From positions 4,818,001-4,882,000 of the forward strand of contig NZ_CP095550.1 of NCBI RefSeq assembly GCF_023078335.1: 64,000 nt of DNA, written 5' to 3'. The notes under the pieces were generated by a model. It was not told the origin of the DNA. It saw nothing but the letters and a program-made list of their open reading frames with translations, and made no database searches. The DNA is from Metabacillus endolithicus. GTDB lineage: Bacteria; Bacillota; Bacilli; Bacillales; Bacillaceae. Every line of letters starts with the position of its first letter. Within the stretch, counting starts at the first letter, position 1. Of this stretch, positions 8,191 through 53,186 are shown one piece after another. A program made the translations under genes and the position numbers.

Positions 8191-8406
8191 TTGTCTCCCC
8201 CTTTGCTGTTTGATAGATAATATCTTAAACCTTTTTTATTCATTTGAAAAGAGATTTGTTTATCTTAATTGATCAGATTTTGACGAAAATTAAATGTAAG
8301 TGTTACCAACTAGCTTTAGATAAGTCCAGGTATATTTTTAAGTCTGTTCATATTTATATTTGCTATTTCTATATAACGACAAGATGGAAATAAGAGGAGT
8401 GTAATC

Positions 8407-8733
8407 ATGAAAGTAAATATTTTTGTAGTGTCGGTCTGCTTATTAGCATGTTCTCTCTTAGTAAGTAGTTTCATCATTTCTAATGCAATAACAAATTCCT
8501 ATGGAGGGAAGAAAGGTAAAGAAGAAGTTTATTCAGATCATGCTCTTATGACAAAAAATGATCTTGAGGTTTATCTTGGATTAACAGACGAAGAGGTATC
8601 TAGATTACTTCCGAAAGCGGAAGATGACGTAACGGCAAGTGAGATCCCTTATTTACTTATAGGAGATACATATTATTTTCCTGCAAAAGCCATTGACAAG
8701 TGGTTACAAGAAACAGAAGCGAGGCACTTTTAA
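8407..8733 (+). CDS. Membrane-anchored excisionase-like helix-turn-helix protein
   Basis: A 108-residue protein with a hydrophobic N-terminal segment (about residues 4-27) followed by a soluble domain. LMTKNDLEVYLGLTDEEVSRLL, PYLLIGDTYYFPAKAIDKWL resembles the excisionase/MerR-type winged HTH (helix-turn, wing with F-P-x-x-A-I-D-x-W). A membrane anchor on such a domain is unusual. If the anchor is a signal peptide, the domain would lie outside the cell and could not bind DNA. It starts at ATG after AAGAGGAG. Confidence 0.55.
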   Translation: MKVNIFVVSVCLLACSLLVSSFIISNAITNSYGGKKGKEEVYSDHALMTKNDLEVYLGLTDEEVSRLLPKAEDDVTASEIPYLLIGDTYYFPAKAIDKWLQETEARHF

Positions 8734-8865
8734 AACATTCATTCTTTGTATAATATTTCCTGAAACTGAAAGGGTTTTTTCTTTTTCTGTTGAATTAAGC
8801 GTTGTGGGTATAAATGAATGAATGTTGTTTAATGCTTTTAACAACTAGAAAAAGAGGTTTATATA

Positions 8866-12113: not shown

Positions 12114-13168
12114 ATGATATATGATGTTTTAATTATTGGTGCAGGTCAAGCGGGAACTTTCAATGGGGTATTTTCTTAAGCAAAGTTATTTATCCTTTTT
12201 AATTATAGATAAGGAGCAAGAAATTGGAAGTGTATGGAGGAAACGCTATGATTCTTTGGTTTTATTTACACCTAAAAGATACAGTTCTTTACCAGGTTTG
12301 ATGATGGAAGGAAATGTAGATGAATTTCCAAAAAGAAACGAGATTGTTGCGTATCTTAAAAAATATGCTACTTCCTTTTCTTTACCAATAAAACATGGTA
12401 CAGAAGTGATTAGAGTAGAAAAAACTAAAAATATTTTTCATGTAGTAACAAATAGAGGAGAATTGTTAGCAAAACAAATAATAGTTGCTACAGGACCTTT
12501 TCAAACACCGAAAATACCTGAAATCTCTCAAAAACTAGATCACAGCATTAAACAACTTCACTCATCTCAATATAAAAATAGTACTCAACTACAGGATGGA
12601 AATTGTTTTAGTGATTGGGGGAGGAAACTCTGGAACACAAATAGCGGTTGAATTATCGAAATCAAAAGAAGTATATTTATCTATTAGTCAAAAGTTGAAA
12701 TTCTTACCGTTAACTTTTGCCTCTAAAAGTATATTTTGGTGGTTTGATAAATTAGGTATTTTACATGCGAACCGTGACTCTTTTATAGCTGAAAAGCTTC
12801 AACAACAAGGCGATCCTATTTTTGGATATGATTTAAAAGAATTAATTCAAAAAGGGAAAGTGATCTTAAAGACTAGAACAAAAAATGCTGAACATACGAC
12901 CATATACTTTGAAGATGGAGATACATTAAAAGTGAAAAACATCATATGGGCAACAGGATTTTACTCAAATTACCATTGGCTGAAAATAAAAGAAGCTTTT
13001 GATAAACAAGGAAATCCAAAGCATATAAGAGGTGTTACTAGTGTTAGTGGATTGTATTTTTTAGGACTTCCATGGCAGCATAGAAGAGGCTCAGCACTAT
13101 TGCTTGGGGTTGGAAATGATGCAAAATATCTATGTCAACAAATTATTAAAAATGTAAATAGTATGTAG
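12114..13168 (+). CDS. Flavin-containing NAD(P)H oxidoreductase, CzcO/YhcU-like monooxygenase type (two apparent frameshifts)
   Basis: A two-dinucleotide-binding-domain flavoprotein. The FAD motif LIIGAGQAG starts near residue 5, and the NAD(P) motif VIGGGNSGTQIAVEL is near residue 160. IIWATGFYSNYHWL and GLYFLGLPWQHRRGS are the C-terminal ATG-type motifs. It likely oxidises an unknown small substrate. Two single-base insertions (about 12153, an extra A; about 12604, an extra T) split it into three frames. Corrected length is 350 residues, usual for the family. Confidence 0.8.
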
Positions 13169-17947: not shown

Positions 17948-18310
17948 GGGATCGTTTTGGTATCGACAGGGATGGTTAAGCTTATATGGCGAGTCGAGTT
18001 GACGAGCTCGTAAAAACGTCAAAGCCTACAACTGGCAAACAACAAAACAACTTCGCTTTCGCTGCCTAACAACAGTCGATAGCGGTTCCGCCCTCCATCG
18101 TCCATGTGGTAGGGATATGGGACTCAAACGTAGTGGACTACACCTGATTCCACCGTCTGAGGAAGAAGGAAGAGAAGAAACAGACTAGCCACTTCAATGC
18201 CTGTCAGTGGTACTAAAGAAGAGGGCGAAACATATTTTTGCTGACTACACTCGTAGAAATATAAGTGGAAACATCTTTGCACACCGGTTCGAATCCGGTC
18301 GATTCCACCA
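17948..18310 (+). ncRNA. ssrA: tmRNA (SsrA)
   Basis: A 363-base tmRNA that rescues stalled ribosomes with SmpB. The 5' acceptor strand GGGATCG pairs with CGATTCC before the 3' ACCA. GACAGGGATGG near the 5' end and GGTTCGAATCC (T-arm) near the 3' end are canonical. The tag frame runs from GGC at 18034 to TAA at 18067 and encodes GKQQNNFAFAA, giving AGKQQNNFAFAA with the tRNA-borne Ala. smpB is not adjacent, unlike in B. subtilis. Confidence 0.95.
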
Positions 18311-18316
18311 AATTAT

Positions 18317-18380
18317 GCCGATCATGCTCAAATTGGTAGAGTGACTTTTAGTTGAGGTTCGACTCCTCAGGACGGCACCA
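18317..18380 (+). pseudogene. tRNA-like sequence with truncated anticodon arm (tRNA-Thr relic?)
   Basis: 64 bases with a near-complete acceptor stem (GCCGATC with GGACGGC, one A:A mismatch), a D-arm (GCTC with GAGT), a perfect T-arm (TGAGG-TTCGACT-CCTCA) and encoded CCA. The anticodon arm is reduced to ten bases, at most a three-pair hairpin (ACT-TTT-AGT). Flanks resemble Bacillus tRNA-Thr. It cannot decode normally. It is either a deletion pseudogene or badly affected by sequence error. Confidence 0.6.
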
Positions 18381-18399
18381 AGAGGTATATTATTATTTT

Positions 18400-18482
<83 letters not shown>

Positions 18483-18541
18483 TTATTCATCCTGCAATGT
18501 TCGTTGCCCCTTCATGTTTTAAACCTTACTATTTATTAGGG

Positions 18542-18663
18542 ATTCCTATATGATTAACCAATGTCACGCCTATCTTAGTAGGATTACAGCAGGTTAATAT
18601 GCGGAAACCCACCTGTTGAAAACAGGTTATCAAAACATTTGGGGAAACGGCATAGGTGGGAAT
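18542..18663 (+). ncRNA. Candidate structured RNA between tRNA-Leu and SRP RNA
   Basis: No coding frame is apparent. Nested complementarity is visible: an outer helix (ATTCC near 18542 with GGAAT near 18663), an inner one (CCAATGT at 18558 with ACATTTGG at 18635) and two hairpins (CCTA/TAGG at 18569 and ACCTGTT/AACAGGT at 18611-18627). CCCACCT at 18608 is also perfectly complementary to AGGTGGG at 18654, which would compete with the second hairpin. I match it to no known family. Confidence 0.4.
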
Positions 18664-18711
18664 GAAATTTTATTAAAAACAACATAACATTTATAATTTT
18701 CTTATACATAC

Positions 18712-18965
18712 CGTTGATAGTCGGGGAGGTAGCGGTGCCCTGTAACTCGCAACCCGCTCTAGCGAGGATGAATTCCTTTTTAGCGGTATGATAATGGAAG
18801 GTTTGCCTTATATAAGCGGTGTTGACTTTCGGAGTCCTCGCAATAGAAACCCATGAATCTGGTCAGGACGGGAACGTAGCAGCCATAAGTGGGACATTCT
18901 ATGTGTCGAAGGGTAGCTTTGAATGAGCTGGCTGTATAAGTAGCGCTTGTGTTGTCATATCAATA
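18712..18965 (+). ncRNA. ffs: SRP RNA (large, Bacillus type; scRNA)
   Basis: The RNA scaffold of the signal recognition particle. The Alu domain is recognised by GGTAGCGGTGCCCTGTAACT, and the M-domain hairpin by GGTCAGG...GGAA...AGCAGCCATAAG. The ends pair (TTGATA at 18714 with TATCAA at 18958), giving about 254 bases, close to the usual 270. In helix 8 the stem flanking the GGAA loop is ACG/CGT where I recall the common UCC/GGA. Boundaries are inferred from pairing. A possible -10 (TATACA) lies at 18703. Confidence 0.88.
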
Positions 18966-18986
18966 AAAGGTTCAACGGTGCTATAT

Positions 18987-19062
18987 GGGGCCTTAGCTCA
19001 GCTGGGAGAGCGCCTGCTTTGCACGCAGGAGGTCAGCGGTTCGATCCCGCTAGGCTCCACCA
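18987..19062 (+). tRNA. tRNA-Ala (anticodon TGC)
   Basis: A canonical 76-base tRNA with GGGGCCT/AGGCTCC acceptor stem, anticodon stem CCTGC/GCAGG around loop TTTGCAC, T-arm CAGCGGTTCGATCCCGCTA and encoded CCA. Confidence 0.96.
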
Positions 19063-24924: not shown

Positions 24925-26291
24925 ATGGGAGCACCACAAAAAGTAATTAATCCTTCACCATTGATACCTACAACAGAGAAGAAAACACGTACACGTTGGT
25001 TTATTGTTTTTATGTTATTTTTAGTAACGGCGCTAAATTATGCAGATCGTGCGACATTATCAATTGCCGGTTCGGATATGTCAAATCAACTAGGACTAGA
25101 TTCTGTTATGATGGGGTATGTTTTCTCGGCATTTGCTTGGTCATATGTAGCAGGACAAATTCCTGGAGGATGGCTTCTTGATCGTTTTGGCTCTAAGAAA
25201 GTTTACTTTTGGAGTATTTTCCTCTGGTCAACTTTCACTCTATTACAAGGTGTAATCGGGTTTTTTGGGACAGCAGGAACGGCTGTTATGGTGTTATTTG
25301 GTCTTCGTTTCTTAGTTGGGCTATCTGAGGCGCCATCTTTTCCTGCAAACAGTCGTATTGTTGCTTCATGGTTTCCAAGCCATGAAAGGGGAACAGCAGC
25401 AGCGACATTTAATTCAGCACAATATTTTGCAACCGTTCTCTTTGCGCCAATTATGGGCTATATCACATACACATTTGGTTGGGAATATGTTTTTTACTTT
25501 ATGGGTGTAGTTGGGATTATCGTTGCTTTCATGTGGCTAAAAGCTATATACAGCCCTCTAAGGATCATCCTCGTATTAATAAAGCAGAACTCGATTATAT
25601 TGAGGCAGGCGGAGCATTAATTAATATGGATCAAAAAGTAGAAAACGAAAAGAAGGAAGACAAGGGAGCAAACTGGAATTACATAAAAAAACTATTATCC
25701 AATAGAATGCTGTTAGGAATATACCTTGGTCAGTATTGTATTACTACCCTAACTTATTTCTTTCTAACATGGTTTCCTGTTTATCTTGTTCAAGAAAGAG
25801 GCATGACGATTTTAGAAGTAGGATTTATCGCATCACTTCCAGCGATTTGTGGTTTTTTTGGTGGAATACTTGGAGGAATGTTCTCTGATTTCTTACTTAG
25901 AAAAGGTTTCTCATTAACGATTGCTCGCAAAACTCCGATTGTTATCGGAATGTTGTTGTCAATGAGCTTGGTTGCTGCTAACTATGTTGAAGCTCAATGG
26001 GTTGTTATATTTGTTATGGCACTAGCATTTTTCGGAAAAGGCTTTGGAGCTCTTGGCTGGGCAGTTGTTTCAGACACATCTCCAAAAGAAATGTCTGGAG
26101 TAAGCGGTGGTCTATTTAATACGTTTGGGAACATTGCTGGGATAACAACACCAATTATTATTGGTTATATTATCGGCACAACTGGTTCATTCAACGGAGC
26201 ACTTGTCTTCGTAGGTGCAAATGCACTTGTCGCAATTTTCAGTTACTTATTCCTAGTAGGTGAAATTAAGCGTGTCGATTTGAAAGCTTAA
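24925..26291 (+). CDS. gudP: Glucarate/hexarate MFS transporter GudP (one apparent frameshift)
   Basis: A 12-span major facilitator of the anion:cation symporter group. The N-terminal segment TALNYADRATLSIAGSDMS and the loop GWLLDRFGSKKVY are signatures, as is VGLSEAPSFPANSRI. A missing base near 25552 (in agccc) splits it. Corrected length is 455 residues, equal to B. subtilis GudP. It imports glucarate or galactarate and is followed by gudD, with no terminator between them, so they form one operon. Confidence 0.88.
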
Positions 26292-30590: not shown

Positions 30591-32096
30591 ATGTTTGATT
30601 TATTTGTTAACGGATTTTCCTCCGTTTTTACACTCTCATCAATTGCTTATATTCTTGGAGGTGTTGCACTAGGGTTAGTTTTTGGTTCGATTCCAGGGTT
30701 AACGGCCACTATGGCGATTGCGATTACTTTACCAATTACGTTTGGGATGGAGCCAATTGTTGCAATGTCACTATTAATGGGATTATACATTGGAGGTGTA
30801 TCGGGTGGCTTAATTCCTGCAATTTTATTAAACCTTCCAGGAACACCATCATCTATCGCAACAACGTTTGACGGTTACCCAATGGCTCAAAAAGGTCAGG
30901 CTGGTCCTGCATTTGGATATGCCATTCTTTTTTCCTTCCTAGGAGGATTACTTAGTATCTTTGTACTGATGCTGCTTTCACCTCCACTCGCAAAGATGGC
31001 TCTTAAATTTGGACCATTTGAATATTTTGCAATTACCATCTTTGCTTTAACGATGATTTCAAGCCTGTCTGGCGATTCCTTAATTAAAGGATTATTAAGT
31101 GGATTGCTAGGAATTTCATTAGCAATGGTTGGTTCGGCTCCTATCGATGCATTTCCAAGATTTACGTTTGGGTTTAAAGAACTTGATGCAGGCTTTCAAC
31201 TTTTACCAGTACTTATTGGTCTGTTTGCTGTATCGGAGATTATTAAATCCTCTGAAACTAAGCTTGGAAAGGGTCAAAAAGTTCAATACAAGTTGAAAGG
31301 GTTTGGCTTTTCAATCCGTGATTTTTTTAAACAAGGATGGAATGGGTTACGTTCAGCACTTATTGGAATAGGAATTGGAATTCTTCCAGGAATTGGAGGC
31401 GGAACAGCCAATATTATCGCGTATGTTGCAGCGAAAAATCAATCAAAAAAACCAGAGGAATTTGGAAAAGGCATTCCTGATGGAATTGTTGCCTCTGAAA
31501 CTTCAAACAATGCAGCTGTAGGTGGTGCGCTTGTACCTTTAATTTCTTTAGGAATTCCTGGAGATACAGTTACAGCCTTACTATTAGGGGGATTAATTCT
31601 ACACGGACTTAGTCCTGGACCACTTCTTATCGAGAACAATGGGGATGTTGTTTACAGTATTTTTGCTGCGTTAATTATTGCTAACTTCTTTATGATTGCC
31701 TTGCTTTTCTGGGGAATGAGACTATTTACAAAGGTTTTAAGCATTCCGCAATATATTCTTTTACCAATTATCCTTGTTCTATGTGTTGTTGGGGCAATCG
31801 GTGTGAATAATCGTTTATTTGATGCAGGCGCACTATTATTTTTTGGGATTTTAGGTTATGCGATGTTGAAATTTAATTTTCCAATTACACCAGTTATTCT
31901 AGGGTTTATTTTAGGACCACTTGCTGAAACCAATTTACGAAGAGGACTTATGTATTCCAAAGGTGATTTCACTCCTTTTATAACAGAACCAATTGCTGCA
32001 ACATTCTTAGCACTAGCATTACTTTCAGTTCTTTTCAAAATTAGAAGTAATTTTAAGAAAAAGAAAAAGATAGATTCAAATTCTATTGGGGCTTAG
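30591..32096 (+). CDS. Tripartite tricarboxylate transporter, large membrane subunit TctA
   Basis: A 501-residue, roughly 12-span permease. Family motifs are GLVFGSIPGLTATMAIAITLP, GGVSGGLIPAILLNLPGTPSS and GILPGIGGGTANIIAYVAAK. The start follows AAGGAGG. The carboxylate channel is completed by the lipoprotein TctC downstream. Its co-operon with a dehydratase-like enzyme implies a sugar acid as substrate, distinct from or in addition to the GudP substrate. Confidence 0.93.
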   Translation: MFDLFVNGFSSVFTLSSIAYILGGVALGLVFGSIPGLTATMAIAITLPITFGMEPIVAMSLLMGLYIGGVSGGLIPAILLNLPGTPSSIATTFDGYPMAQKGQAGPAFGYAILFSFLGGLLSIFVLMLLSPPLAKMALKFGPFEYFAITIFALTMISSLSGDSLIKGLLSGLLGISLAMVGSAPIDAFPRFTFGFKELDAGFQLLPVLIGLFAVSEIIKSSETKLGKGQKVQYKLKGFGFSIRDFFKQGWNGLRSALIGIGIGILPGIGGGTANIIAYVAAKNQSKKPEEFGKGIPDGIVASETSNNAAVGGALVPLISLGIPGDTVTALLLGGLILHGLSPGPLLIENNGDVVYSIFAALIIANFFMIALLFWGMRLFTKVLSIPQYILLPIILVLCVVGAIGVNNRLFDAGALLFFGILGYAMLKFNFPITPVILGFILGPLAETNLRRGLMYSKGDFTPFITEPIAATFLALALLSVLFKIRSNFKKKKKIDSNSIGA

Positions 32097-32117
32097 GTAC
32101 CACTCTTAACTTTGTTT

Positions 32118-32134
32118 TATAGGAAATTCCTATA
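32118..32134 (+). repeat. Intercistronic hairpin before tctC
   Basis: TATAGGAAATTCCTATA is a near-perfect palindrome in the 60-base gap between tctA and tctC. It may set a higher level of the binding protein by mRNA processing or protection. Inference. Confidence 0.35.
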
Positions 32135-32161
32135 GATATAAAAATATTTAGGAGGTTGATT

Positions 32162-33157
32162 ATGAAGAAATCGTTTAAGGGTATGTTAATGTTCATGATG
32201 CTTATTTTGGTTGCAGGTATTTTTGCTGGATGTTCACAATCTACGACAAATGAAGGGGAAAACGGTCAAGAAAGTGGTGATTCTAATAATTATCCATCTA
32301 AACCAATTACAGTTGTTGTACCAGCAGGAGCAGGTGGAGATACAGATGCAAATGCGAGATTACTAGGAAAATATTTAGAAAAGGAATTAGGGCAACCGGT
32401 GGTTATTTCAAATGTAACTGGTGCCGGCGGTACAGTTGGAGCAAAAGAAGTGTTAGATGCTGATCCTGATGGCTATACAGCTATTTTTTTCCATAACTCA
32501 TTATTGTTAAACAGAATTATGGGACTCACACAAGATAGTTATGATTCTTTTAAACTAGCAGGAATTGCAGTTTTAGATCAAGGAAACACCTTTATGGTTA
32601 GTGGTAATTCTAAATTTGAAAATCTTCAAGATATGGTTGAATATGCACGTGAAAACCCTGGTGAAGTTTCGATAGCTACAGAGGTTGGGGGCTTTACACA
32701 CTTACAGCTACTAGCATTACAAAAAGACCAAGGCATTGAACTCAATATTGTAGATGTTGGGGGAGCAGCCGAAAAAGTAACAGCTTTACTAGGTGGCCAT
32801 GTTGATATTGTTCCAACATCACTAGGATTAGTTAAGGACTATGTTGAGTCTGGTGACATGAGAACACTTGGGATTATGGCAAGTGAACGAGTTGATCTTA
32901 TGCCTGATGTTCCAACATTTGTTGAACAAGGTGTAAACAGTGAGTTTGAAAAATTCTTCTTCTTTGGTTTTAATCCAGATACTCCCGATGAAATTGTTGA
33001 CGCATTCTCTAAAGCTGTTGAGAATGTAGTAAACGACGAGGAATATGTAAAAGAAGCTGAGAAATTCTTAGTAACACCAACTTATATGAATGCAAAAGAA
33101 GCTTTTGATTATATGAAGAAAGCAGAAGAAAAATATATTGAGATAAATAAAGAGTAA
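32162..33157 (+). CDS. Tripartite tricarboxylate transporter substrate-binding lipoprotein TctC
   Basis: A 331-residue exported binding protein. Lipobox VAGIFAGCSQS places Cys near residue 24. A Ser/Asn/Glu-rich linker follows, then the TctC core YPSKPITVVVPAGAGGDTDANAR and NVTGAGGTVGAKEV. The start is ATG 32162 behind TTAGGAGG. It captures the carboxylate outside the cell for TctAB. Intact. Confidence 0.92.
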   Translation: MKKSFKGMLMFMMLILVAGIFAGCSQSTTNEGENGQESGDSNNYPSKPITVVVPAGAGGDTDANARLLGKYLEKELGQPVVISNVTGAGGTVGAKEVLDADPDGYTAIFFHNSLLLNRIMGLTQDSYDSFKLAGIAVLDQGNTFMVSGNSKFENLQDMVEYARENPGEVSIATEVGGFTHLQLLALQKDQGIELNIVDVGGAAEKVTALLGGHVDIVPTSLGLVKDYVESGDMRTLGIMASERVDLMPDVPTFVEQGVNSEFEKFFFFGFNPDTPDEIVDAFSKAVENVVNDEEYVKEAEKFLVTPTYMNAKEAFDYMKKAEEKYIEINKE

Positions 33158-33199
33158 TTGAATCTATTCAATTTTTGGAAAGATTAAACATTTTGTAAG

Positions 33200-33250
33200 T
33201 TGACAACGCATGCTATTTGTCTTACAATTTTAATTAATTGTAAGACAAAT
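33200..33250 (+). promoter_or_regulatory. kdgD copy 2 promoter with two facing operators
   Basis: TTGACA, 17 bases, TACAAT. A first operator ATTTGTCTTACAAT (33215-33228) covers the -10, and an exact inverted copy ATTGTAAGACAAAT (33237-33250) follows eight bases later. Together they form one large dyad. Confidence 0.8.
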
Positions 33251-33285
33251 AGACAATATAAAGGATGATGAAAGGGATTGATGGT

Positions 33286-34224
33286 ATGACAGAGAAAAGA
33301 ATGGCACCAACTGGAATTTTAGGATTTCCTACTGCACCATATAACGAGAACGGTAACATCGATGAACAGGCTTTAGAAGCAAATATTCAGTTTTTAATTG
33401 ATTCAGGGCTCTCATCTATCTTTATTGCGTGTGGTTCTGGTGAATTCCATGCACTAAATAAAGCTGAGTACCAAACAATGATTGAGGTTGCAGTGGCTGT
33501 AGCAAATCATAAGGTTCCTGTTTATTCAGGGGTCGGGGGATCCATTTCGGAGGCTGTTGAGTTAGTTACGTTGTCAGAAGATTTAGGAGTAGATGGGTAT
33601 TTAATTCTTCCTCCATACCTAATTGAAGGGGAACAAGAGGGATTATACAACTATTACAAAACCATTATTCAAAGCACCGAATTAAATGCAATCCTATATC
33701 AGCGTGATAATGCGGTATTACAATTACCAACATTACAACGCTTACTGGATGAATTCCCTCAAATCGTTGGCGTAAAAGATGGTCAAGGAAATATGGAATT
33801 GAATCTAGAGTTTACACAAACAATTGGTAATCGAGTGGAATGGCTAAACGGTATGCCATTCGCAGAAATCACAATGCCAGCTTATAAAGGAATTGGATTT
33901 AAGTCGTATTCTTCTGCAATATCAAACTATCTTCCACATATCTCAAGGATGTATTTTGAAGCATTAATGGAAGGTAAAGACGATATAGCAAATGAAATTT
34001 ATAGAGATGTCCTTCTTCCAATTAACCACATTAGAAAACAACGAAAAGGTTATGCGGTTTCATTGATTAAGGCTGGAATGGAGATCATGGGCTTTCCAGT
34101 GCAAAACACCGTTCGCCCACCATGTGTTCCAGTTGAAAAGGAACATTACGAACAACTAAAGAAAATTATTGAAAATACTTTAGCGAAATATCCCATTCAA
34201 AACAAGGCAGTAAGTAACTCTTAA
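33286..34224 (+). CDS. kdgD: 5-dehydro-4-deoxyglucarate dehydratase KdgD, copy 2
   Basis: A second KdgD of 312 residues, similar along its whole length to the copy at 23661-24593 ([49 protein letters not shown]). The Schiff-base Lys and the YQRD Tyr are both present. ATG 33286 is chosen for its spacing from AAAGGG. It heads an operon with aldehyde dehydrogenase and galactarate dehydratase, and copy 1 is separately transcribed. Confidence 0.92.
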
Positions 34225-34256
34225 GATTATTTTTAGAAATTAAAGGAGGAATTAAC

Positions 34257-35719
34257 ATGGCTGTAGAAACAAAAAACAAAACATTCAAAAACTATATAAA
34301 CGGGTCTTGGTCTGAATCTTTAAGTGGTAATGTTCAAAAGAGTATTAATCCTGCAAACTATGATGATGTTGTTGGCTATGTGCAAATGTCTACCAAAGAA
34401 GAAGTAGATCAAGCAGTCGCTGCTGCAAAGGAAGCACAAAAAGCATGGCGTAAATTGGCTGGAAGTGAACGAGGTGCCTATCTATATAAAGCTGCTGATA
34501 TTTTAGAAAAACGTTTAGATGAAGTTGCTGAAGCGATGACTCGTGAAATGGGAAAAACTCTTCCAGAAGCAAAAGGTGAAACAGCTCGTGGTGTAGCAAT
34601 TCTTCGTTATTATGCTGGCGAAGGCATGCGTAAAGTCGGAGATGTGATCCCATCAACAGATAGCAAAGCATTAATGTTTACAAGCAGGGTTCCTTTAGGA
34701 GTTGTTGGAGTGATTACACCTTGGAACTTCCCAGTCGCAATTCCGATTTGGAAAATGGCTCCAGCTCTTATATATGGTAACTCTGTTGTATTAAAACCAG
34801 CTCAAGAAACAGCTGTTACAGCAGCAAAAGTGATTGAATGCTTTGAAGAAGCGGCTTTCCTGCAGGTGTTGTTAATTTCGTTACTGGATCTGGCTCTGTT
34901 ATCGGTCCTGCAATCACTGACAATCCAGATGTGAGTGGTATTACGTTCACTGGATCAAATGGTGTTGGAAAAGGAATCGGTCAAGCAGCATTAAGTCGTG
35001 GAGCAAAATATCAACTCGAAATGGGTGGGAAAAACCCTGTTATCGTTGCTGCTGATGCTGATTTAGATCTTGCCGTTGAAGCAACAATTAGTGGGGCATT
35101 CCGTTCAACAGGTCAAAAATGTACGGCAACTAGTAGAGTCATCATTGAGGCTTCTGTTTATGAAACATTCAAAGAAAAACTAGTTGAAAAAACAAAAGAA
35201 ATAACAGTTGGAAATGGCTTGCAAGATGGAATTTGGATGGGACCATCTGCTAGTGAAGGACAACTTAACACTGTGCTTTCTTACATTGAAAAAGGAAAAG
35301 AAGAAGGGGCTCGACTGCTTTTTGGTGGAAATCGCTTAACAGGAGCTGAGTATGATAAAGGTTTCTATGTTGAACCAACAATTTTTGATAACGTAACTTC
35401 AGATATGACAATTGCTCAAGAAGAAATATTCGGACCAGTTATTGCTCTAATACAAGTTAATTCAATGGAAGATGCACTAGCACTTGCAAATGATGTTCAA
35501 TACGGATTAAGTGCATCTATCTTCACAACAAATATTTCAAACATGCTTTCATTTATAGAAGATATGGAAGCCGGACTTGTTCGAATTAATGCTGAAAGTG
35601 CTGGAGTTGAGCTACAAGCACCATTTGGTGGAATGAAACAATCAAGCTCACATTCTCGTGAACAAGGTGAAGCTGCTAAAGAATTCTTCACTTCCATTAA
35701 AACAGTTTTTGTTAAGTAA
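34257..35719 (+). CDS. 2,5-dioxopentanoate (alpha-ketoglutarate semialdehyde) dehydrogenase (one apparent frameshift)
   Basis: Oxidises 2,5-dioxopentanoate, the KdgD product, to 2-oxoglutarate. It is a standard [24 protein letters not shown] (NAD site), [24 protein letters not shown] with the Glu, and [13 protein letters not shown] with the catalytic Cys. A missing base near 34850 splits it. Corrected length is 487 residues, like B. subtilis YcbD. It starts 32 bases after kdgD copy 2 behind AAAGGAGG. Confidence 0.88.
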
Positions 35720-35771
35720 AAAAGAGTAGATATGCAGGAGTATAGTAGTTTTAATAAAGGAGACGCTTCCA

Positions 35772-37305
35772 ATGTCTTTTAAAAAAACAAACGAAATTCC
35801 ACTATATATAAAAGTAAATTCAAAAGATAATGTAGCAATTATCGTTAATTCAAAAGGGCTTGCCGGAAGGAACTTCCTTTCCGTGCGGTCTAACCTTAGT
35901 TGAATATGTACCCCAAGGTCATAAAGTAGCATTATCTGATTTCGAGGCTGGCGAAGCTATTATTCGATATGGAGAAGTTATCGGATATGCCCAATCACCA
36001 ATGAAAAAAGGCTGCTGGGTAAAAGAATCTTTCATTAGGATGCCAACACCCCCAGAGTTAGATGCGTTACCGTTAGCAACGAAGATACCAGATTCAGAGC
36101 CACCTTTAGAAGGATACACGTTTTTAGGATATCGCAATCCTGATGGTACAGCAGGTATTAAAAATATACTAGGAATCACAACAAGTGTTCAATGTGTTGC
36201 AGGTGTGCTTGATTATGCAGTAAACAGAATTAAAAAAGAAATTCTTCCAAACTATCCTAATGTTCATGATGTTGTCGCAATTAATCATACATATGGATGT
36301 GGAGTTGCAATTAATGCTCCTGAAGCAGCCATACCGATTCGGACGATTCAAAATATTGCCACACACCCAAATCTTGGCGGTGAAGTGATGGTGGTCGGCT
36401 TAGGCTGTGAAAAATTAGCACCAGGTCGATTAGTGCATGATGGAGATCCAGAAAAAATTCTGTCTCTACAAGATCAAAATGGCTTTATCAATATGATTGA
36501 AATGATAACGGATATGGCAGAGGATCGCTTGAAAACATTAAATGAGCGAGAAAGAGAAATTTGTCCCGTTTCTGACCTAGTTGTAGGGTTACAATGTGGT
36601 GGTAGTGATGCGTTTTCTGGTGTAACAGCAAATCCAGCTGTAGGGTATGCTGCAGATTTATTAGTTAGAGCAGGGGCAACGGTTATGTTTTCGGAAGTTA
36701 CAGAAGTACGCGATGCTGTCCATTTGTTAACTCCAAGAGCCATAAATGAAGAAATTGGTCGTGAACTAATTCATGAAATGAAGTGGTATGATGACTATTT
36801 ACAGCGAGGAGAAGCGGACCGAAGCGCAAATCCTTCACCAGGCAATAAAAAGGGTGGATTATCCAATGTAGTTGAAAAATCATTAGGATCCATTGTGAAA
36901 TCCGGTACCTCTGCGATCAACGGTGTTGTTCCACCAGGTGAAAAAGCCAAGCAAAAAGGATTACTTTTCGCGGCTACTCCAGCAAGTGATTTTGTATGTG
37001 GGACACTGCAGTTGGCTTCTGGAATGCATCTTCAGATTTTCACAACAGGTCGTGGCACTCCGTACGGTTTAGCAATGGCTCCAGTTATTAAAGTATCAAC
37101 GCGGAATTCATTACAAGAACAGTGGAAAGATTTAATTGATGTCAATGCTGGTCAAATTGCAACAGGTGAAGCATCTATTGAAAAAGTTGGTTGGGAACTT
37201 TTTCGCTTCATTTTAGATGTTGCAAGCGGCCGAAAGCAAACATGGGCTGAAAAGTGGGGACTCCATAACGATTTAGCATTATTTAATCCTGCTCCAGTAA
37301 CATAA
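35772..37305 (+). CDS. garD: Galactarate dehydratase GarD (one apparent frameshift)
   Basis: Dehydrates galactarate to 5-keto-4-deoxyglucarate, giving a second feeder into KdgD. The N-terminal SAF-type domain ([18 protein letters not shown]) is separated from the rest by one extra base near 35859. The frame then continues [20 protein letters not shown] and the GarD core [19 protein letters not shown] and [13 protein letters not shown], with cysteine metal ligands. Corrected length is 510 residues, equal to B. subtilis GarD. ATG follows AAAGGAG. Confidence 0.9.
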
Positions 37306-40246: not shown

Positions 40247-41527
40247 ATGAACAAACATAACAGCAAGTACAGATGGGTCGTTTTTGCCTCCGTCCTATTC
40301 ACCTATTTTCTCATAGTTAGTCAAAGAACGGCACCGGGCTTAATTACAGCTCAATTAATGAAGGATTTTCATGTAACAGCTGCAACAATTGGCATGATTG
40401 CAAGTATTCAGTTTGTCGCATATGCAGGTTTACAGGTTCCGATTGGAATTTTATCAGATCGGTTTGGACCTAATTTTTTCCTCATTGTTGGAACGTTTTT
40501 AACTGGAATTGGAACTTTGATTTATAGTGTTGCACCTAATGAAATTGTGCTTCTTGTGGCAAGGTTAATTGTTGGAACCGGTGATTCAGCTATTTGGGTT
40601 AACTTAGTTTTAATTTTAAGTCAATGGTTCAAAGGAAATGAGTTTGTTAAATTAATTGGAATGGCTGGAATGGCTGGAAGTCTTGGTTTTTTTCTTGCAT
40701 CGGTACCATTTTCTATATTCATAGGATTAACAGGTTGGAGAACTTCCTTTTTATCAATGGGTATCCTTTTATGTTTAAGTGGACTACTTCTTTATATAGT
40801 TCTGGTTCATCGTCCAAAAAAATGATGAAAAATCATCATTCAACTCAACCTTCTGCAAAGAAAACCAGTTCCTCACCTGAAAAAACAATGATGATATTAA
40901 AGCGTATTTTTTCAACTCGTCAAGCATGGGCAGCTTTCTTCTGTCACTTTGGTGCTGTTGGTACATATGTGGGGTTCATTGGTTCATGGGATTGTACCAT
41001 ATGGAATGAATGTGTTTGATATGTCGCTTTCTAGTGCAAGTCAATTGATTATGTATGGTCTTGTTGGGGCGATCATTGGAGCACCTTTAACAACCTGGAT
41101 CTCAAGTAGAATTCATTCTATTAAAAAACCTTATATGATTGTTCATTCTATTATCTTTCTTAGCTGGTCGTCATTTCTCTTATTTAGTGGAAAGCCACCA
41201 TTTTTTATGATCGTTCTCTTGTTTTTCATGATTGGTTATGGAAACGGTGCAAGTACCTTAACCTTTGCCATTGTCCGCCAATCTTTTGATCCGAAAGAGG
41301 TAGGAGTTGCAACGGGTTTTGCTAATATGGGTGGTTTTTTAAGTGCTGTTTTATTACCAAGTATTTTTGGTAAAGTATTAGACTATTTTCAGGCATCTGA
41401 AAGCAATATCGGTTATTTCTATGGATTTATAATTCCTGTGGTTTTTTCGTTAATAGGTTTATTTGGTGGATATCTTATTAAAGAACAACGTCAGGAGGTT
41501 ATGCAATCTAAGGGGTTAACCTATTAA
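40247..41527 (+). CDS. MFS transporter (two apparent frameshifts)
   Basis: A 12-span major facilitator of the sugar phosphate/nitrate-type group. The segment QFVAYAGLQVPIGILSDRFGPN contains the typical loop 2-3 motif. A missing A in the run near 40820 and an extra G near 40991 offset the frame in the middle (LVHRPKKMMKNHH...FIGSW). Corrected length is 426 residues. Substrate is not predictable. ATG follows TAGGAGC. Confidence 0.82.
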
Positions 41528-47160: not shown

Positions 47161-48273
47161 TTATTGTTTAACTTGTCTATACATCCAATCAATCATATCC
47201 TTGTTATCGTAGGCTGGTACCCAAGAAGCATGATTATAGCCTAATTCTGCAGGATACTCTGTATATATAGGGTTTCCTCCAGCTTCTTTTATTGCCTCAA
47301 TAGCATTTCTTGTATGTGAAACAGGAATTACTGCATCATCTTCAGCATGAAAAGCCCATATTGGTTTATCTTTTAAAACATGTACTGTCTCAGGATTTCC
47401 ACCGCCTGCAATTGGGACCATAGCAGCAAAAAGATCAGGGTATGCAATATTCAAATTAAATGTTCCATATCCTCCTTGAGAAAGTCCTGTTGAATATAGT
47501 CGATTTTGATCAATATTGTAATCATGAATCACTTTTTGTAAGATATTGTAGGCTTTTCCTAGATCCTCTGAAAATTCGAATACACTGGACAAATCGATAA
47601 TATTATCCGAATTCCGAGTAATTCCAAATCCACCGTCATGTTGATTTCTTGCCTGTGGTGCAAGAACAAAGGCTGGATTCTTGGATTGATTTTCAGGTGC
47701 AGCCCATATAACAGCGCCATCATTTGCAAGCAATTGTTTCTGATTATCGTTTCCTCGTTCGCCACCCCCATGAAGAAAAAGAACAAGCGGGTAAGAAACA
47801 GAAGGATCATAGTTTTCTGGAATATAAAGACGATAAGGCATGTTATTATAGTCTAACTCTAGAAACTTATCAGCAATATCCTCTCTATTTACAAAATAGT
47901 AATTGAATGTGACCACCTCGCTACTAGTATTTCCTTTATTTCTTGTAAGTGCTTTTTCGTTAACATTACCACGAAAAGCAAAAGCCTTAATTGTTACATC
48001 TTTATTGATTGCAATGGGCTCAGAATACAAAATACTGTTTTTAGTAGGTATACTACCATCTGTTGTGTAATAGATTTTAGTCCCCGGAGTACTAGTTGAT
48101 AAGGTAACGAGCTGTTCCTTGTAATATTGACCAGAATTGTGCGAGGTAGACGGCGGTTGTACAACACCATTAGCTGGGTTGTTGTCTGCAAATACTGAAA
48201 GAGAGAAAAGGAAGAACATAGAGAGTGTGACTACAATAGTGCTAATGAAAAATTTTAGTTTTCTTTTTAACAA
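47161..48273 (-). CDS. Secreted esterase with N-terminal CHB_HEX_C-type domain and alpha/beta hydrolase domain
   Basis: A 370-residue exported protein. A signal peptide (about residues 1-29, cleavage after VFADN-like ADN) is followed by a beta-sandwich (residues about 40-125, TPGTKIYYTTDGSIPT, chitobiase C-terminal type) and a feruloyl/polyhydroxybutyrate-esterase-like hydrolase (PLVLFLHGGGERGND, GLSQGGYGTFNL with the Ser, AEDDAVIPVSHT with the Asp, NHASWVPAY with the His). Upstream is a near-consensus cre site, so it is probably glucose-repressed. The natural ester is unknown. Confidence 0.88.
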   Translation of the reverse strand: MLKRKLKFFISTIVVTLSMFFLFSLSVFADNNPANGVVQPPSTSHNSGQYYKEQLVTLSTSTPGTKIYYTTDGSIPTKNSILYSEPIAINKDVTIKAFAFRGNVNEKALTRNKGNTSSEVVTFNYYFVNREDIADKFLELDYNNMPYRLYIPENYDPSVSYPLVLFLHGGGERGNDNQKQLLANDGAVIWAAPENQSKNPAFVLAPQARNQHDGGFGITRNSDNIIDLSSVFEFSEDLGKAYNILQKVIHDYNIDQNRLYSTGLSQGGYGTFNLNIAYPDLFAAMVPIAGGGNPETVHVLKDKPIWAFHAEDDAVIPVSHTRNAIEAIKEAGGNPIYTEYPAELGYNHASWVPAYDNKDMIDWMYRQVKQ

Positions 48274-48315: not shown

Positions 48316-48358
48316 TGGTAACGGTTACATCGTATAATGAAGAATTTTAAGCTGTCAA
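48316..48358 (-). promoter_or_regulatory. Promoter and cre site of the secreted esterase gene
   Basis: On the minus strand TTGACA is followed, after 16-18 bases, by TATACG or TACGAT, and then by TGTAACCGTTACCA (48316-48329), which matches cre at 13 of 14 positions. A cre just downstream of the -10 is a classic repression position. Confidence 0.65.
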
Positions 48359-48475: not shown

Positions 48476-49879
48476 ATGCTATATGAAAACTTTAAGGAGT
48501 TTTCCTTGGAAGATCAATTAGACTGGTTTAAAGCTACGCTCCACTCCATTCATGATGGTGTTCTAGTGATAGATTCTAAAGAGATTGTTAAATTAATTAA
48601 TCCTGAATATTCGCGTATAACAGGAGTACAACCTAATGAAATTATTGGAAAACCTCTTCGGTTAGTTCGTCCAAAAGCACAATTAATTGAAACGTTAAAA
48701 GACGGAAAAGAACGAATTGGGGTTTATCGTAAAGAAGGATCTGTGGAATATGTTGTTGACATGGCACCAATTATATTAAACAACGAAATAATTGGAGCTG
48801 TTTCGATTTGTAAAGGCTTAACAGAAGTTCATAAGCTCTCAAAAGAACTTGAGAAAAACAAGCAAAAACTAACTCAATTGAAAGAAAGAATGGACATCTT
48901 ATATCAAGCTAAATATACATTCGACCAAATTATCGGTTCGGAAAGCGGACTGAAAGGAGTTGTTCACTTAGGAAGAAAAGCTGCTGAATCTAATTTACCT
49001 GTATTAATTATCGGTGAAAGTGGAACAGGTAAAGAACTATTTGCTCAAGCAATTCATAATGCAAGTTCTCGTGCAGAAAAGCCATTTATCCCAGTGAATT
49101 GTGCGTCTATCCCAGAATCGCTCATTGAAAGTGAGCTTTTTGGATATACCGAAGGTACTTTTACAAGTGCTAAAAAAGGTGGAAAGCTAGGTTTATTTGA
49201 AATAGCAAACTCGGGTACAATTTTTTTAGATGAAATAGGTGAGTTATCTTATGATCTTCAAGCCAAACTTTTACGAGTTTTACAGGAAAAAACACTTAGA
49301 CGTGTAGGTGAAGCAGGAGAAAGACAAATAGATGTTCGTGTAATTGCTGCAACAAATCGTGATCTAAAGCAGCTTATAGAAAAGAAACGATTTCGTGAAG
49401 ATTTGTATTTTCGGTTGAATGTATTGCACCTTGATATTCCGCCACTTCGTAAAAGGAAGCAGGATATTCCCGACATTATTGATTTAATTTTACACAAGCA
49501 CAACCTACATTCTGAAAGTGAACGGTATTATCGATTACACCAATCAACCCTTGCCATTCTAAAAGCTTACGATTGGATCGGAAATGTACGAGAATTGAAA
49601 AATACAATTGATTATGCCGTATGCATGGCAGACGAAAGAGATATTCTACCTGAACATTTACCTAGTAGCTTTCATGGAGAAAATATTAGTATCTCAAAAA
49701 AAAATTCTAACTATCTTTTAAAAGCCGCTGTTGAGGAGACAGAGAAAAATATCATTACAGATGTTTTGCAAAAACATGGTTCTGAACTGGAGGATAAGAA
49801 AAAAGCAGCTAAGGAACTTGGGGTGTCTTTAGCAACGCTTTATAACAAAATGAAAAAGTATCAACTATATGATTTCTAA
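48476..49879 (+). CDS. Sigma-54-dependent transcriptional activator with PAS domain
   Basis: A 467-residue bacterial enhancer-binding protein: PAS sensor (about residues 15-125, VIDSKEIVKLINPEYSRITG), AAA+ domain (about 155-380; Walker A GESGTGKE, Walker B GTIFLDEIGEL) and a C-terminal Fis-type HTH (KKAAKELGVSLATLYNKMKK). The sigma-54 contact loop reads GTFTSA instead of GAFTGA. TTG 48461 opens the frame, but ATG 48476 follows GAGGAGG. It should activate the operon downstream. Confidence 0.9.
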   Translation: MLYENFKEFSLEDQLDWFKATLHSIHDGVLVIDSKEIVKLINPEYSRITGVQPNEIIGKPLRLVRPKAQLIETLKDGKERIGVYRKEGSVEYVVDMAPIILNNEIIGAVSICKGLTEVHKLSKELEKNKQKLTQLKERMDILYQAKYTFDQIIGSESGLKGVVHLGRKAAESNLPVLIIGESGTGKELFAQAIHNASSRAEKPFIPVNCASIPESLIESELFGYTEGTFTSAKKGGKLGLFEIANSGTIFLDEIGELSYDLQAKLLRVLQEKTLRRVGEAGERQIDVRVIAATNRDLKQLIEKKRFREDLYFRLNVLHLDIPPLRKRKQDIPDIIDLILHKHNLHSESERYYRLHQSTLAILKAYDWIGNVRELKNTIDYAVCMADERDILPEHLPSSFHGENISISKKNSNYLLKAAVEETEKNIITDVLQKHGSELEDKKKAAKELGVSLATLYNKMKKYQLYDF

Positions 49880-49990
49880 ATAATTAGAAAAGAACTTGTG
49901 TTTATTCTAAGGATTTAGAATAACAGTGTTCACAACTGATTGACGATCAAATGAGGTTTATTGCTTATTTAGAATTCTAAAAATTTAGAA
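49874..49990 (+). promoter_or_regulatory. Three upstream activator sites TTCTAA-N4-TTAGAA
   Basis: Three copies lie at 49874-49889 (centre ATAA, overlapping the activator stop codon), 49905-49920 (centre GGAT) and 49975-49990 (centre AAAT). All six bases of each arm are identical. The third shares an extra head-to-head half (TTAGAATTCTAA). They lie about 40-170 bases before the -24 element, typical of enhancer sites for the activator encoded upstream. Confidence 0.8.
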
Positions 49991-50001
49991 ACTCACTTTT
50001 T

Positions 50002-50027
50002 AAAAACGCTTTCATTAAGCGTTTTTT
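50002..50027 (+). terminator. Terminator of the activator gene
   Basis: AAAACGCTT and AAGCGTTTT form a hairpin with a five-base loop and T-rich tail, sitting between the third activator site and the sigma-54 promoter. Part of it (TGAAAGCGTTTTTA on the minus strand) resembles a cre site. Confidence 0.75.
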
Positions 50028-50031
50028 ATTT

Positions 50032-50048
50032 TGGCATGGAAGTTGCAT
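50032..50048 (+). promoter_or_regulatory. Sigma-54 (SigL) promoter, -24/-12 type
   Basis: TGGCATGGAAGTTGCAT has the invariant GG and GC exactly ten bases apart and matches TGGCAYR-N4-TTGCW. It is placed 135 bases before the AtuA-family gene. Confidence 0.9.
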
Positions 50049-50182
50049 AAGTAATGATGTAACTGAATTTACAGGAAGGATCGGTCTAATATTTCAAGAT
50101 TAATAAATTGCGTCAAGAATAATTAATAAAAAACTAAAAAACAATTTTTTGTGTACTTTTAGTCTTTATTGGGGTGAAAAAA

Positions 50183-51514
50183 ATGTTAAAGATCGGAAGT
50201 GGAGCTGGATTTTCAGGAGATCGACTTGAACCCGCCGTTGAACTGGCTCAAAAAGTAAACCTGAATTATTTAGTACTAGAGTGTTTAGCTGAAAGAACAA
50301 TCGCCATTGCACAGAAAGAAAAGAGGAAAAATAAAAATAAGGGTTACGATCCTCTACTTGTTGATCGAATATCTGCCTTATTACCAGTATTGGATAAAAA
50401 ACGATTTCGAATCGTAACAAATATGGGAGCGGCCAATCCAATGGCTGGTGCTAAAAAGATTATTGAGATTGCAAATGAAATGAATATTTCTTGTAAGGTC
50501 GCAGTTGTATCAGGTGATGATGTGATACAAGAGCTAGATAGTGAAAATGAAGTCCTTGAAAACACAAATAAGGTTAGAGATTATCAAGTAATCTCAGCTA
50601 ATGCTTACTTAGGAGCCAAGGCACTTTTACCAGCTTTACAAACTAAAGCAGATATTATTATTACAGGACGTGTTGCTGATCCATCATTATTTCTTGCGCC
50701 GATGATCGATTACTATGGTTGGTCACTAAATGATTATGAAACATTAGGGCAAGGTACTGTGATTGGACATTTACTTGAATGCGCTGGTCAAATTACAGGT
50801 GGCTATTTTGCGGATATAGGAGAAAAAGAAGTTGATAAGTTAGCAGACATAGGTTTTCCATATGCAAGTATTGAGAGTGATGGAACAGCCATTATTTCAA
50901 AGACTCCTGACTCAGGTGGTGTAGTAAATTTACGAACAGTTAAAGAGCAACTACTATACGAGGTCCATGATCCAACTCAATACCTAACACCAGATGTAAC
51001 AGCAGATTTTTCTAAAGCTGACTCAACTAGCTGAAAATGAAGTAAGGGTAGAGGGGGGAAAGGTACGGAAAAGCCTAGTGCTTATAAAGTATCTATTGGG
51101 TATGATGCAGGTTATCTTGGTGAAGGAGAAATTTCTTATGCAGGTTCAACCGCTGTTCAAAGAGCCAAGATGGCGGAGTGTATATTAAATAAAAGACTTT
51201 GTCAAAAGATACAAGACTTAAGGATTGATCTGATTGGTCTTTCCTCCGTTCATCGTACAAACTTAGGAAATGATCAACCTTATGAAGTAAGATTACGAGC
51301 AGCTGCTCTTTGTAAAGATATAAAAGAAGCTCACAGTATTGGAAATGAAGTAGAAGCACTATACACTAATGGACCGTATGGAGGCGGTGGTGCAAGAAAA
51401 AGAGCGACAGAATGTTTAGGTGTTGTTTCAACTTTTATAGAAAGAAATTTAGTTGATAAAAAGATACAAGTGGAGGTTATAACGCATGAAAGGAAAGAAA
51501 ATCAAACTATATGA
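50183..51514 (+). CDS. AtuA-family (DUF1446) protein (two compensating frameshifts)
   Basis: An acyclic-terpene-utilisation AtuA-family protein of unknown enzymology. MLKIGSGAGFSGDRLEPAVELA is the N-terminal signature, with ITNMGAANPMAGAKK-like RIVTNMGAANPMAG and IITGRVADPSLFLAPM. One extra base near 51020 and one missing G near 51060 put about 40 bases out of frame; outside this the coding phase is the same. Corrected length is 443 residues. ATG 50183 is chosen over GTG 50174 by RBS spacing (TTGGGGTG). Confidence 0.85.
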
Positions 51515-51815
51515 GGTAGCACATAGCAGAGCAGGTGATAAGGGGAATACCTCTAATCTTTCACTTATCCCATTTAAGGAAAGTGACTTTGATTGGATAG
51601 GTCAGGTCGTAACTGTAGAAAGAGTAAAGGAGCATTTTAAAGACATTTTTTACGGTGATGTAATTCGTTATGACATACCATCTATTAAATCCTATAATTT
51701 TGTTTGTAAAAATAGTTTACTAGGAGGGGTAACGACCTCTCTTGCACTAGATACTCATGGGAAAAGTTTGAGTAGCGCTTTATTGGAAATGGAAATTCCT
51801 TTATTGAATGAATAG
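51486..51815 (+). CDS. Small AtuA-like (ferredoxin-fold) protein
   Basis: A 109-residue protein that resembles the C-terminal domain of large AtuA proteins: KLYEVAHSRAGDKGNTSNLSLIPF and the NFVCKNSLLGGVTTSLALDTHGKSL region. Here it is a separate gene overlapping the AtuA-family gene by 29 bases, behind GGAGG. The two are probably subunits of one enzyme. Function unknown. Confidence 0.82.
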   Translation: MKGKKIKLYEVAHSRAGDKGNTSNLSLIPFKESDFDWIGQVVTVERVKEHFKDIFYGDVIRYDIPSIKSYNFVCKNSLLGGVTTSLALDTHGKSLSSALLEMEIPLLNE

Positions 51816-51832
51816 GAATGTAATTAGCGGTT

Positions 51833-51846
51833 TGTAAGCGCTTAAA
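51833..51846 (+). promoter_or_regulatory. Candidate cre site before the CitMHS gene
   Basis: TGTAAGCGCTTAAA matches the cre consensus at 13 of 14 positions and is 19 bases before the transporter start. It could act as a roadblock within the operon. Confidence 0.45.
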
Positions 51847-51864
51847 TACGTTAGGAGGAATCAT

Positions 51865-53150
51865 ATGTTAGCGACCTTAGGATTTTTAACGATCGGCGTT
51901 TTCTTATTATTGATTTTAACGAAAAGAGTATCGGTTATTGTCGCGTTAATTGTTGTTCCACTTGTATTTGCTTTAATAGGAGGGTTTAGTTCCGATATTG
52001 GAACTCTTATGTTAGAAGGAATTCAAAGCGTAGCTCCAACAGGAATTATGTTAGGATTTGCCATTTTATTTTTTGGTGTAATGAATAATGCTGGATTATT
52101 TGATCCTATTATTTCAAGAGTATTAAAGTTGGTAAAAGGAGATCCATTAAAAATTGTTATTGGTACAGCGGTTATTGCTATGGTAACTCATCTTGATGGA
52201 TCTGGAACTTCCACATTTTTAATTACAATACCAGCTCTTTTGCCTTTATATGATAAATTAAAAATGAATCGACTTGTTCTAGCAGGTGTTGTTGCATTAG
52301 GTGCTGGAGTAATGAATATTATGCCATGGGGCGGGCCAACTGCAAGAGCTGGCAGTGCATTAGAATTAGATCCTGATTTATTTTTTCACCGCTTATACCA
52401 GCAATGATAGCAGGAATAATTTGGGTGCTTTTTGTTGCTTATATTCTTGGTAAAAAAGAGAGAAGACGATTAGGTGTTACCGATATGGAATATGATTATG
52501 ATCAAGAGCTTTCGGATGAAGAAAGAAAAATGAGAAGGCCGAAATTATTTTGGATTAACCTTGTTATTACCATCCTAACAATTGTTGCACTTGTAAAAGT
52601 TTGGCTTCCTCTACCAATAGTGTTTATGGTTGCATTTGCTATTGTGTTACTTATTAATTATCCTAAACCAAATGATCAACAAGAACAAGTCAAGAGTCAA
52701 GCACTTGGAATGGTAACTGTTGTATCAATTATATTTTCAGCTGGAATTTTTACTGGCATTCTAAGTGGAACAGGTATGATCGAAGCAATGGCATTAGCTA
52801 TGGTTAATATAATTCCTGAGGGGATTGGGGGATCAATGGCTATAGTTATTGCAGTGATTAGCATGCCAATCAGCCTTCTTTTTACACCTGATGCATATTA
52901 TTTTGGTGTATTGCCAGTATTAAGTCAGTCAGCTGAAATATATGGAGTTGCACCGATCGAAATGGCCAGAGCTTCCATCTTAGGACAAATGACTACTGGT
53001 TTCCCATTAAGTCCTTTAACGGCTTCAACCTTTTTATTAATTGGTTTAGCAGGGGTTGAATTAGGGGATCATCAGCGCTTTATTTTTAAATGGGCATTTG
53101 GCACAACAATTGTGATGGCCATTGTCGCCCTTATTATTGGTGCGATTTGA
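51865..53150 (+). CDS. CitMHS-family (citrate-Mg/Ca:H symporter) transporter (one apparent frameshift)
   Basis: A carboxylate transporter with about 12 membrane segments. MLATLGFLTIGVFLLLILTKR, the conserved VTHLDGSGTSTFLITIPALLPLYDKL and INIPEGIGGSM-like IIPEGIGGSMAIVI are CitMHS features. A deleted T in a T run near 52385 breaks the frame. Corrected length is 428 residues, as for CitM/CitH. It is the third gene of the sigma-54 operon and suggests that the operon handles a complexed or branched carboxylate. Confidence 0.87.
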
Positions 53151-53155: not shown

Positions 53156-53186
53156 AAAAAGCCAACTACTTCAGTTGGCTTTTTTA
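53156..53186. terminator. Terminator of the sigma-54 operon
   Basis: AAAAAGCCAACT and AGTTGGCTTTTT form a 12-base-pair stem with a five-base loop and T run, before the convergent ABC operon. Confidence 0.92.

Follow-up and report, generated by a model that had tools for sequence, protein, structure and literature searches.

A sigma-54-dependent AtuA operon in Metabacillus endolithicus and its Bacillales relatives: a probable route for cleaving a tertiary hydroxy-carboxylate without coenzyme A

We analyze here an operon in a stretch of 64,000 nucleotides of the Metabacillus endolithicus genome (5.3 Mb; contig NZ_CP095550.1, positions 4,818,001 to 4,882,000, G000:C1:4818001-4882000 in our survey), which as a whole we call the window. 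The operon joins a protein of the AtuA family and a separate small protein to a CitMHS-family transporter, under a sigma-54 activator and next to a divergent esterase gene. With moderate confidence, we read it as an inducible route in which an ester is hydrolyzed, the freed acid is taken up by CitMHS, and the AtuA pair cleaves a C-C bond of a tertiary hydroxy-carboxylate independently of coenzyme A (CoA). A first-pass annotation of this DNA had proposed a regulated operon for the uptake and conversion of a carboxylate without CoA ligase or carboxylase, and a survey of gene context in relatives speaks for that proposal. The order in the window is esterase (minus strand), activator, three palindromes, sigma-54 promoter, AtuA, small protein, CitMHS, and a terminator-like hairpin:

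47161..48273, minus strand: candidate secreted esterase, with a CHB_HEX_C/Fn3-like domain and an alpha/beta hydrolase of polyhydroxybutyrate (PHB)-depolymerase/EstA type (Pfam), divergent from the activator
48316..48330, minus strand: catabolite-responsive element (cre)-like site for CcpA, ATGTAACCGTTACCA, upstream of the esterase, by the consensus as we take it to be
48476..49879, plus strand: sigma-54 activator with PAS, AAA+ with lid, and Fis-type helix-turn-helix domains (Pfam)
49874..49889: predicted upstream activating palindrome 1, TTCTAAATAATTAGAA
49905..49920: predicted upstream activating palindrome 2, TTCTAAGGATTTAGAA
49975..49990: predicted upstream activating palindrome 3, TTCTAAAAATTTAGAA
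50032..50047, plus strand: sigma-54 -24/-12 promoter TGGCATGGAAGTTGC = TGGCATGGAAGTTGCA, an exact consensus match
50183..51514, plus strand: large subunit of the AtuA family (PF07287), its frame broken in this assembly between about 51000 and 51170
51486..51815, plus strand: small subunit (PF23544, AtuA_ferredoxin; profile match)
51865..53150, plus strand: CitMHS-family symporter of citrate/metal-citrate type (TIGR00784), interrupted at about 52380-52404
53157..53185, plus strand: hairpin and T run resembling an intrinsic terminator, 3' of CitMHS, read directly from the sequence, with no terminator scan

The genes of the operon that had been proposed are real, but AtuA and CitMHS are interrupted and the esterase had been overlooked. 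The first AtuA piece matches PF07287 at E 8.9e-111, the two pieces scoring 371.2 and 44.5 bits (gathering cut-off 22.8), and the small protein matches PF23544 at E 3.6e-35 (121.1 bits, cut-off 27). Their genes share 29 bases (51486 to 51514), and after the small protein comes the transporter, which had indeed been called as of metal-citrate type. Against TIGR00784 its second piece alone scores 277.8 bits and its first 240.1 (cut-off 259.7), which places it in the citrate:proton symporter family together with the CitM/CitH-type citrate transporters; those we take to be controlled by a two-component system, as opposed to the sigma-54 activator here. The PAS-containing sigma-54 activator also stands as first described, given its PAS, Sigma54_activat AAA+ and Fis-type helix-turn-helix domains and the exact -24/-12 target.

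This gene set is conserved. In a survey with one genome per species, AtuA-family matches are found in 8 of 21 genomes of the genus, 22 of 80 of the family and 79 of 397 of the order. We analyzed 53 loci (52 fetched plus the window) using simple open-frame calling and BLAST clusters, and built a maximum-likelihood tree of 70 rows: the 52 loci, the intact relative P0001 (445 amino acids, 98% identical to the first AtuA piece) standing for the window, 14 plasmid loci, and 3 fused proteins. P0001 falls within a clade of 30, formed by 29 Bacillales rows plus Spirosoma, with support 100/99. CitMHS lies near AtuA in all 30 rows, and the activator cluster near all 29 Bacillales loci. If a context is counted as CoA-type once two or more of six enzyme clusters of that kind lie within 4.5 kb of AtuA, none of these 29 loci has one, versus 13 of 13 in a separate 13-row AtuA clade. 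The members of these clusters look like a carboxylase, an acyl-CoA dehydrogenase, a hydratase, and a ligase. Adjacency to terpene genes in relatives had been named as an observation that would refute the proposal; in these terms it is absent from the window's clade and a matter of that other clade.

All but two of the 53 loci (51, the exceptions being L026 and L041) have a separate small gene close by, therefore the split state is common and the fused AtuA is an alternative form; the three fused rows in the tree (Achromobacter, Bradyrhizobium, one unclassified) lie outside the window's clade. The "split C-domain" of the first-pass annotation is a real separate gene, but nothing special to this operon. 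Bacteroidota, Proteobacteria and haloarchaea also have the set of CitMHS, AtuA and small protein, each in single records, and in some loci TctC or tripartite ATP-independent periplasmic (TRAP) systems replace CitMHS. The close relatives belong to Metabacillus: among the matches listed, the best one to AtuA that carries a species name is from M. schmidteae (83%), and the three contigs with names are from M. halosaccharovorans (whose locus L009 has an intact AtuA and small-protein pair), M. niabensis and Bacillus sp. J37. Priestia megaterium has an AtuA (P0020) with 64% identity to the first piece in the window. We found no paper on this operon in the open-licence literature.

Some relatives have richer neighborhoods. 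Two related loci, L021 and L022, add genes resembling 3-hydroxy-3-methylglutaryl-CoA lyase, CitE and CoA-transferase (the first two profile-tested in L021), and in Salipiger the genes for MaoC, CoA-transferase and CoA-ester-lyase precede TRAP transporter, AtuA and small gene. These neighbors show that some AtuA branches do use CoA, and they hint at branched C5/C6 dicarboxylates. A different AtuA locus of the same genus (L014 in G001) has what looks by eye like an oligopeptide-type ATP-binding cassette (ABC) transporter, followed by AtuA, the small gene, and two S15-type hydrolases.

What could the AtuA pair do? A structure model of P0001 (445 residues, predicted local distance difference test score 92.3, 96 aligned sequences) has one outstanding match in the PDB, 9evf_A, from a "Citramalate lyase - ADP - pyruvate complex". 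The match extends over 407 residues at 15% identity and comprises the large-subunit fold over the whole chain, and the profile of the P0001 alignment matches the same chain at E 6.8e-9. The chain is itself labelled "Acyclic terpene utilization AtuA family protein | Citramalate lyase, subunit A (cmlA)". CmlAB (PDB 9erq and 9evf, the latter released 2025-10-08) has two subunits, of 456 and 105 residues, an organization it has in common with the window pair. GR..D, LEC and YE..(D)P are seen in the aligned CmlA chain, and are present in 69, 62 (pattern [IL]EC) and 70 of the 70 AtuA rows; the R-x-GDKG and D..GK motifs of the small protein are kept in 26 of 26 aligned sequences. The small protein relates to CmlB, which is DUF4387, by fold only and via a fused homologue: the model of the fused Achromobacter AtuA (score 89.3) matches 9evf_A first and 9evf_B second (E 4.6e-3). 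The ADP in the title of 9evf suggests a role for a nucleotide.

CmlAB differs from the window pair in that the Bacillales hold separate CmlAB-like pairs in other surroundings, at six other loci chosen from weak family- and order-level matches. The pair in L102, the sole locus of the six tested, matches the PDB CmlAB at E 2.3e-135 (large) and 2.4e-23 (small). In L102, L104 and L105 (about 5900-8700) the pairs (PF07287 plus a small gene, with DUF4387 tested in L102) adjoin ABC-permease-like genes, with a ribokinase-like gene in between in L102 and L104, by eye. In L103 and L107 (about 4100-9100) they lie beside a GntR-like regulator and an FAD (flavin adenine dinucleotide) oxidoreductase resembling 2-hydroxyglutarate oxidase, also by eye.

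Published work bears on the activity as well. In the account that a 2025 review gives of anaerobic naphthalene degradation (PMC12016498), ThnQ and ThnS, whose genes stand next to each other in its table, form an "AtuA-like lyase" that was heterologously expressed and cuts where a tertiary carbon bears a hydroxyl and adjoins a free carboxylate. Their substrate is a cyclic CoA thioester, which sets them apart from our proposal, and the likeness to the window pair is one of description. Given this lyase as reviewed there and the citramalate lyase fold, the first-pass statement that the activity of AtuA is not known appears partly out of date. For the AtuA of the Pseudomonas acyclic terpene cluster, which is of the same family by name (the P. 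aeruginosa protein was compared by name only) and differs in having a CoA-type operon, the literature contains a speculation that it is an acetate-releasing lyase, whereas a 2014 review gives that step to LiuE instead. In enterobacteria, a DUF1446 gene lies downstream of methylaspartate ammonia-lyase in a setting where the fate of citramalate is called "still unclear" (PMC4682846). We infer that this gene is cmlA, and it is compatible with the citramalate-lyase reaction. In all these cases the hydroxyl sits on a carbon with no hydrogen left, in beta position to a free carboxylate, and the latter leaves as acetate or alkanoate.

The promoter architecture is shared as well. TGGCATGGAAGTTGC at 50032 is the sole match to TGGCA[CT]N5TTGC on both strands of the 64 kb. 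Scanning with our own weights (maximum 20.5, threshold 19, no shuffled control), we find a -24/-12 site at or above threshold before the first structural gene of every Bacillales clade locus except L033, 28 of 29 in all. An exact TTCTAA-N(3-5)-TTAGAA palindrome, again without a shuffled control, is in front of it in 23 of 29, and was not found in front of the operon in L031, L038, L040, L041, L042 and L044. In the four loci with the esterase first (L040, L043, L045, L050) the promoter stands before the esterase in all four and the palindrome in three. The three TTCTAA-N4-TTAGAA palindromes of the window are 3 of the 4 such sites in its genome. In ten genomes scanned whole there are 36 sites, 24 before the operon and 12 elsewhere, and the reversed control pattern has 12; in one of them, G416, no such site precedes the operon. 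The activator looks to act locally on this operon. Between esterase and activator, all 7 genus loci have a cre-like match, and none of the 5 clade loci scanned outside the genus has an intergenic one; the consensus is the one we presume for CcpA, and the 64 kb contain 9 matches on both strands together.

The esterase, with an N-terminus that by eye is signal-like, is a frequent partner. All 7 genus loci of the clade have it beside the operon, and an esterase of cluster c6 (16 loci) or of the separate cluster c54 (3 loci) lies near AtuA in 19 of the 29 Bacillales clade loci, placed variously as divergent upstream gene, first in the operon, or last. Esterase matches at E <=1e-60 occur in 11 of the 397 order genomes, beside the operon in 7 and away from it in G042, G062, G159 and G442. 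With 21 of 397 carrying the clade operon, the association has a hypergeometric p of 1.2e-7, kinship ignored. Of the 21 genomes of the genus, 9 carry the esterase, again 7 of them beside the operon, and the remaining two match the hydrolase part only.

We propose the following mechanism. Outside the cell, the esterase, which in Metabacillus is probably controlled by CcpA, would free the acid from its ester, and CitMHS would import the resulting anion. Through its PAS domain the activator would sense the acid or a product, and it would bind TTCTAA-N4-TTAGAA and open the sigma-54 promoter. AtuA, presumably paired with the small protein, would act as a CoA-independent lyase of retro-aldol type, cutting between the carbon that bears the hydroxyl and its neighbor with the free carboxylate, and yielding acetate and an oxo-acid that could pass straight into central metabolism. 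The likeliest substrate would be citramalate or a close analogue, for example 3-hydroxy-3-methylglutarate. A module with no CoA enzyme and one di/tricarboxylate transporter fits citramalate going to pyruvate and acetate, and it also fits 3-hydroxy-3-methylglutarate going to acetoacetate and acetate, or citrate going to oxaloacetate and acetate. The citramalate lyase fold is our reason for ranking citramalate-like acids first; citrate, for which no lyase is required, comes lower. The more ambitious claim, a complete undescribed catabolic module across Bacillales and beyond, in which a two-subunit, perhaps nucleotide-linked and CoA-free AtuA lyase is fed by extracellular esterases of several families, we put forward tentatively, as slightly short of an even bet.

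Several observations weigh against this proposal. The 15% identity to the citramalate lyase A chain and the profile E-value given above are below the similarity of orthologues, and CmlAB belongs to a different branch, with DUF4387 for small subunit where the window has PF23544. The two small-subunit profiles do not match in sequence (hhalign probability 0.6%) while the large-subunit profiles do (98.5%, E 3.2e-15), thus the window pair is, as judged by sequence, a distant sister of CmlAB and not an orthologue. The ThnQS result is cited as unpublished by its own authors (PMC12016498). In ten of the 29 clade loci the neighborhood lacks an esterase of either cluster, c6 or c54, and in three of the 16 c6 loci (L016, L050, L035) the esterase is split or truncated. 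The esterases resemble PHB-depolymerases and 3-hydroxybutyrate (3HB)-oligomer hydrolases weakly, mostly under the curated cut-offs. The CitMHS family is best known for citrate, and an aerobe with a tricarboxylic acid cycle needs no citrate lyase. And with AtuA and CitMHS both interrupted here, the strain of the window may have no working copy.

Could the substrate be citrate itself, imported with its metal by CitMHS and split by AtuA and the small protein into acetate and oxaloacetate? The transporter does match the citrate:proton symporter model, and citrate is the carboxylated analogue of citramalate, whose lyase has the fold; yet an aerobe with aconitase has no need of such an enzyme, an esterase would not be expected for citrate, and other transport systems take the place of CitMHS in some loci, all of which makes this rather improbable. 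The esterases call to mind instead 3HB oligomers or another polyester, with AtuA acting on the 3-hydroxy acid. The window esterase is of the same serine-hydrolase type as PHB depolymerases, 3HB-oligomer hydrolases and EstA, c54 weakly resembles 3HB-oligomer hydrolases and tannases, and family members of the former occur at two proteobacterial AtuA loci: in Microvirga, a full one (PF10605, E 3.7e-231) after AtuA, small gene and TctC, and in Pseudomonas luteola, one annotated after CitMHS. But the window esterase scores under the curated NCBIfam cut-offs for PHB depolymerase (NF050058, E 2.7e-19, 69.7 bits, cut-off 150; TIGR01840, E 2.4e-13, 50.1 bits, cut-off 107.85), and its best PDB relative is 3doh, an "esterase" (E 4.5e-61). 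Moreover, 3-hydroxybutyrate is normally handled by a dehydrogenase, and its hydroxyl is secondary, not tertiary, so we regard the polyester explanation as rather improbable too. A part in the breakdown of acyclic terpenes or leucine, which the family name suggests, could draw on the 13 AtuA loci set among CoA-type genes, but these are of another clade, and in the window's own clade the absence of carboxylase, hydratase, acyl-CoA dehydrogenase and ligase neighbors from all 29 Bacillales loci contradicts it; we deem it highly improbable.

A different matter is whether the operon has decayed in this strain, leaving AtuA and CitMHS as pseudogenes. AtuA appears as two listed open frames, one ending at 51034 and the other at 51170-51514, and the genome search finds 2 TGA stops inside it; the CitMHS pieces cover positions 1-175 and 181-428 of TIGR00784. 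Partners are split or truncated at other loci too (CitMHS in L022 and L040, besides the three esterases already mentioned). On the other hand, nothing interrupts the small gene, the promoter or the palindromes, P0001 is an unbroken protein 98% identical to the first piece, and in the other seven genus genomes with AtuA the match is free of internal stops. Moreover, four unrelated genes of the window likewise fall into two open frames each: a flavin monooxygenase (12136-13168), two major facilitator superfamily transporters (24925-26291 and 40247-41527, the second aligning with a single 430-residue frame of L018), and an aldehyde dehydrogenase (34257-35719), which suggests that indels are frequent in this assembly. 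Homopolymer runs are present in all five stretches checked near breaks (the aldehyde dehydrogenase left out), in AT-rich DNA and without a control. Because of these runs and the four other split genes, we judge assembly indels likelier than decay for both breaks, and decay unlikely.

If the proposed lyase route is true, a family named after terpene breakdown gains a job. AtuA relatives number at least 7999 in a single search, many of them named "acyclic terpene utilization AtuA family protein", and should the CitMHS-linked branch prove to cleave hydroxy acids without CoA, annotations under that name would be misleading, and many bacteria may have a carbon source that has gone unnoticed. The conserved palindrome together with the sigma-54 promoter could serve as a reporter in a search for the inducer, and with the 2025 structure of citramalate lyase the reaction can be tested directly.

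Elsewhere in the window, 30591-37305 holds TctA, TctC, a dihydrodipicolinate synthase-type aldolase, the split aldehyde dehydrogenase and a galactarate/altronate dehydratase, and looks like an ordinary cluster for hexarate catabolism with a tripartite tricarboxylate transporter. At 17948-19059, a transfer-messenger RNA, a large signal recognition particle RNA and two tRNAs are grouped closely.

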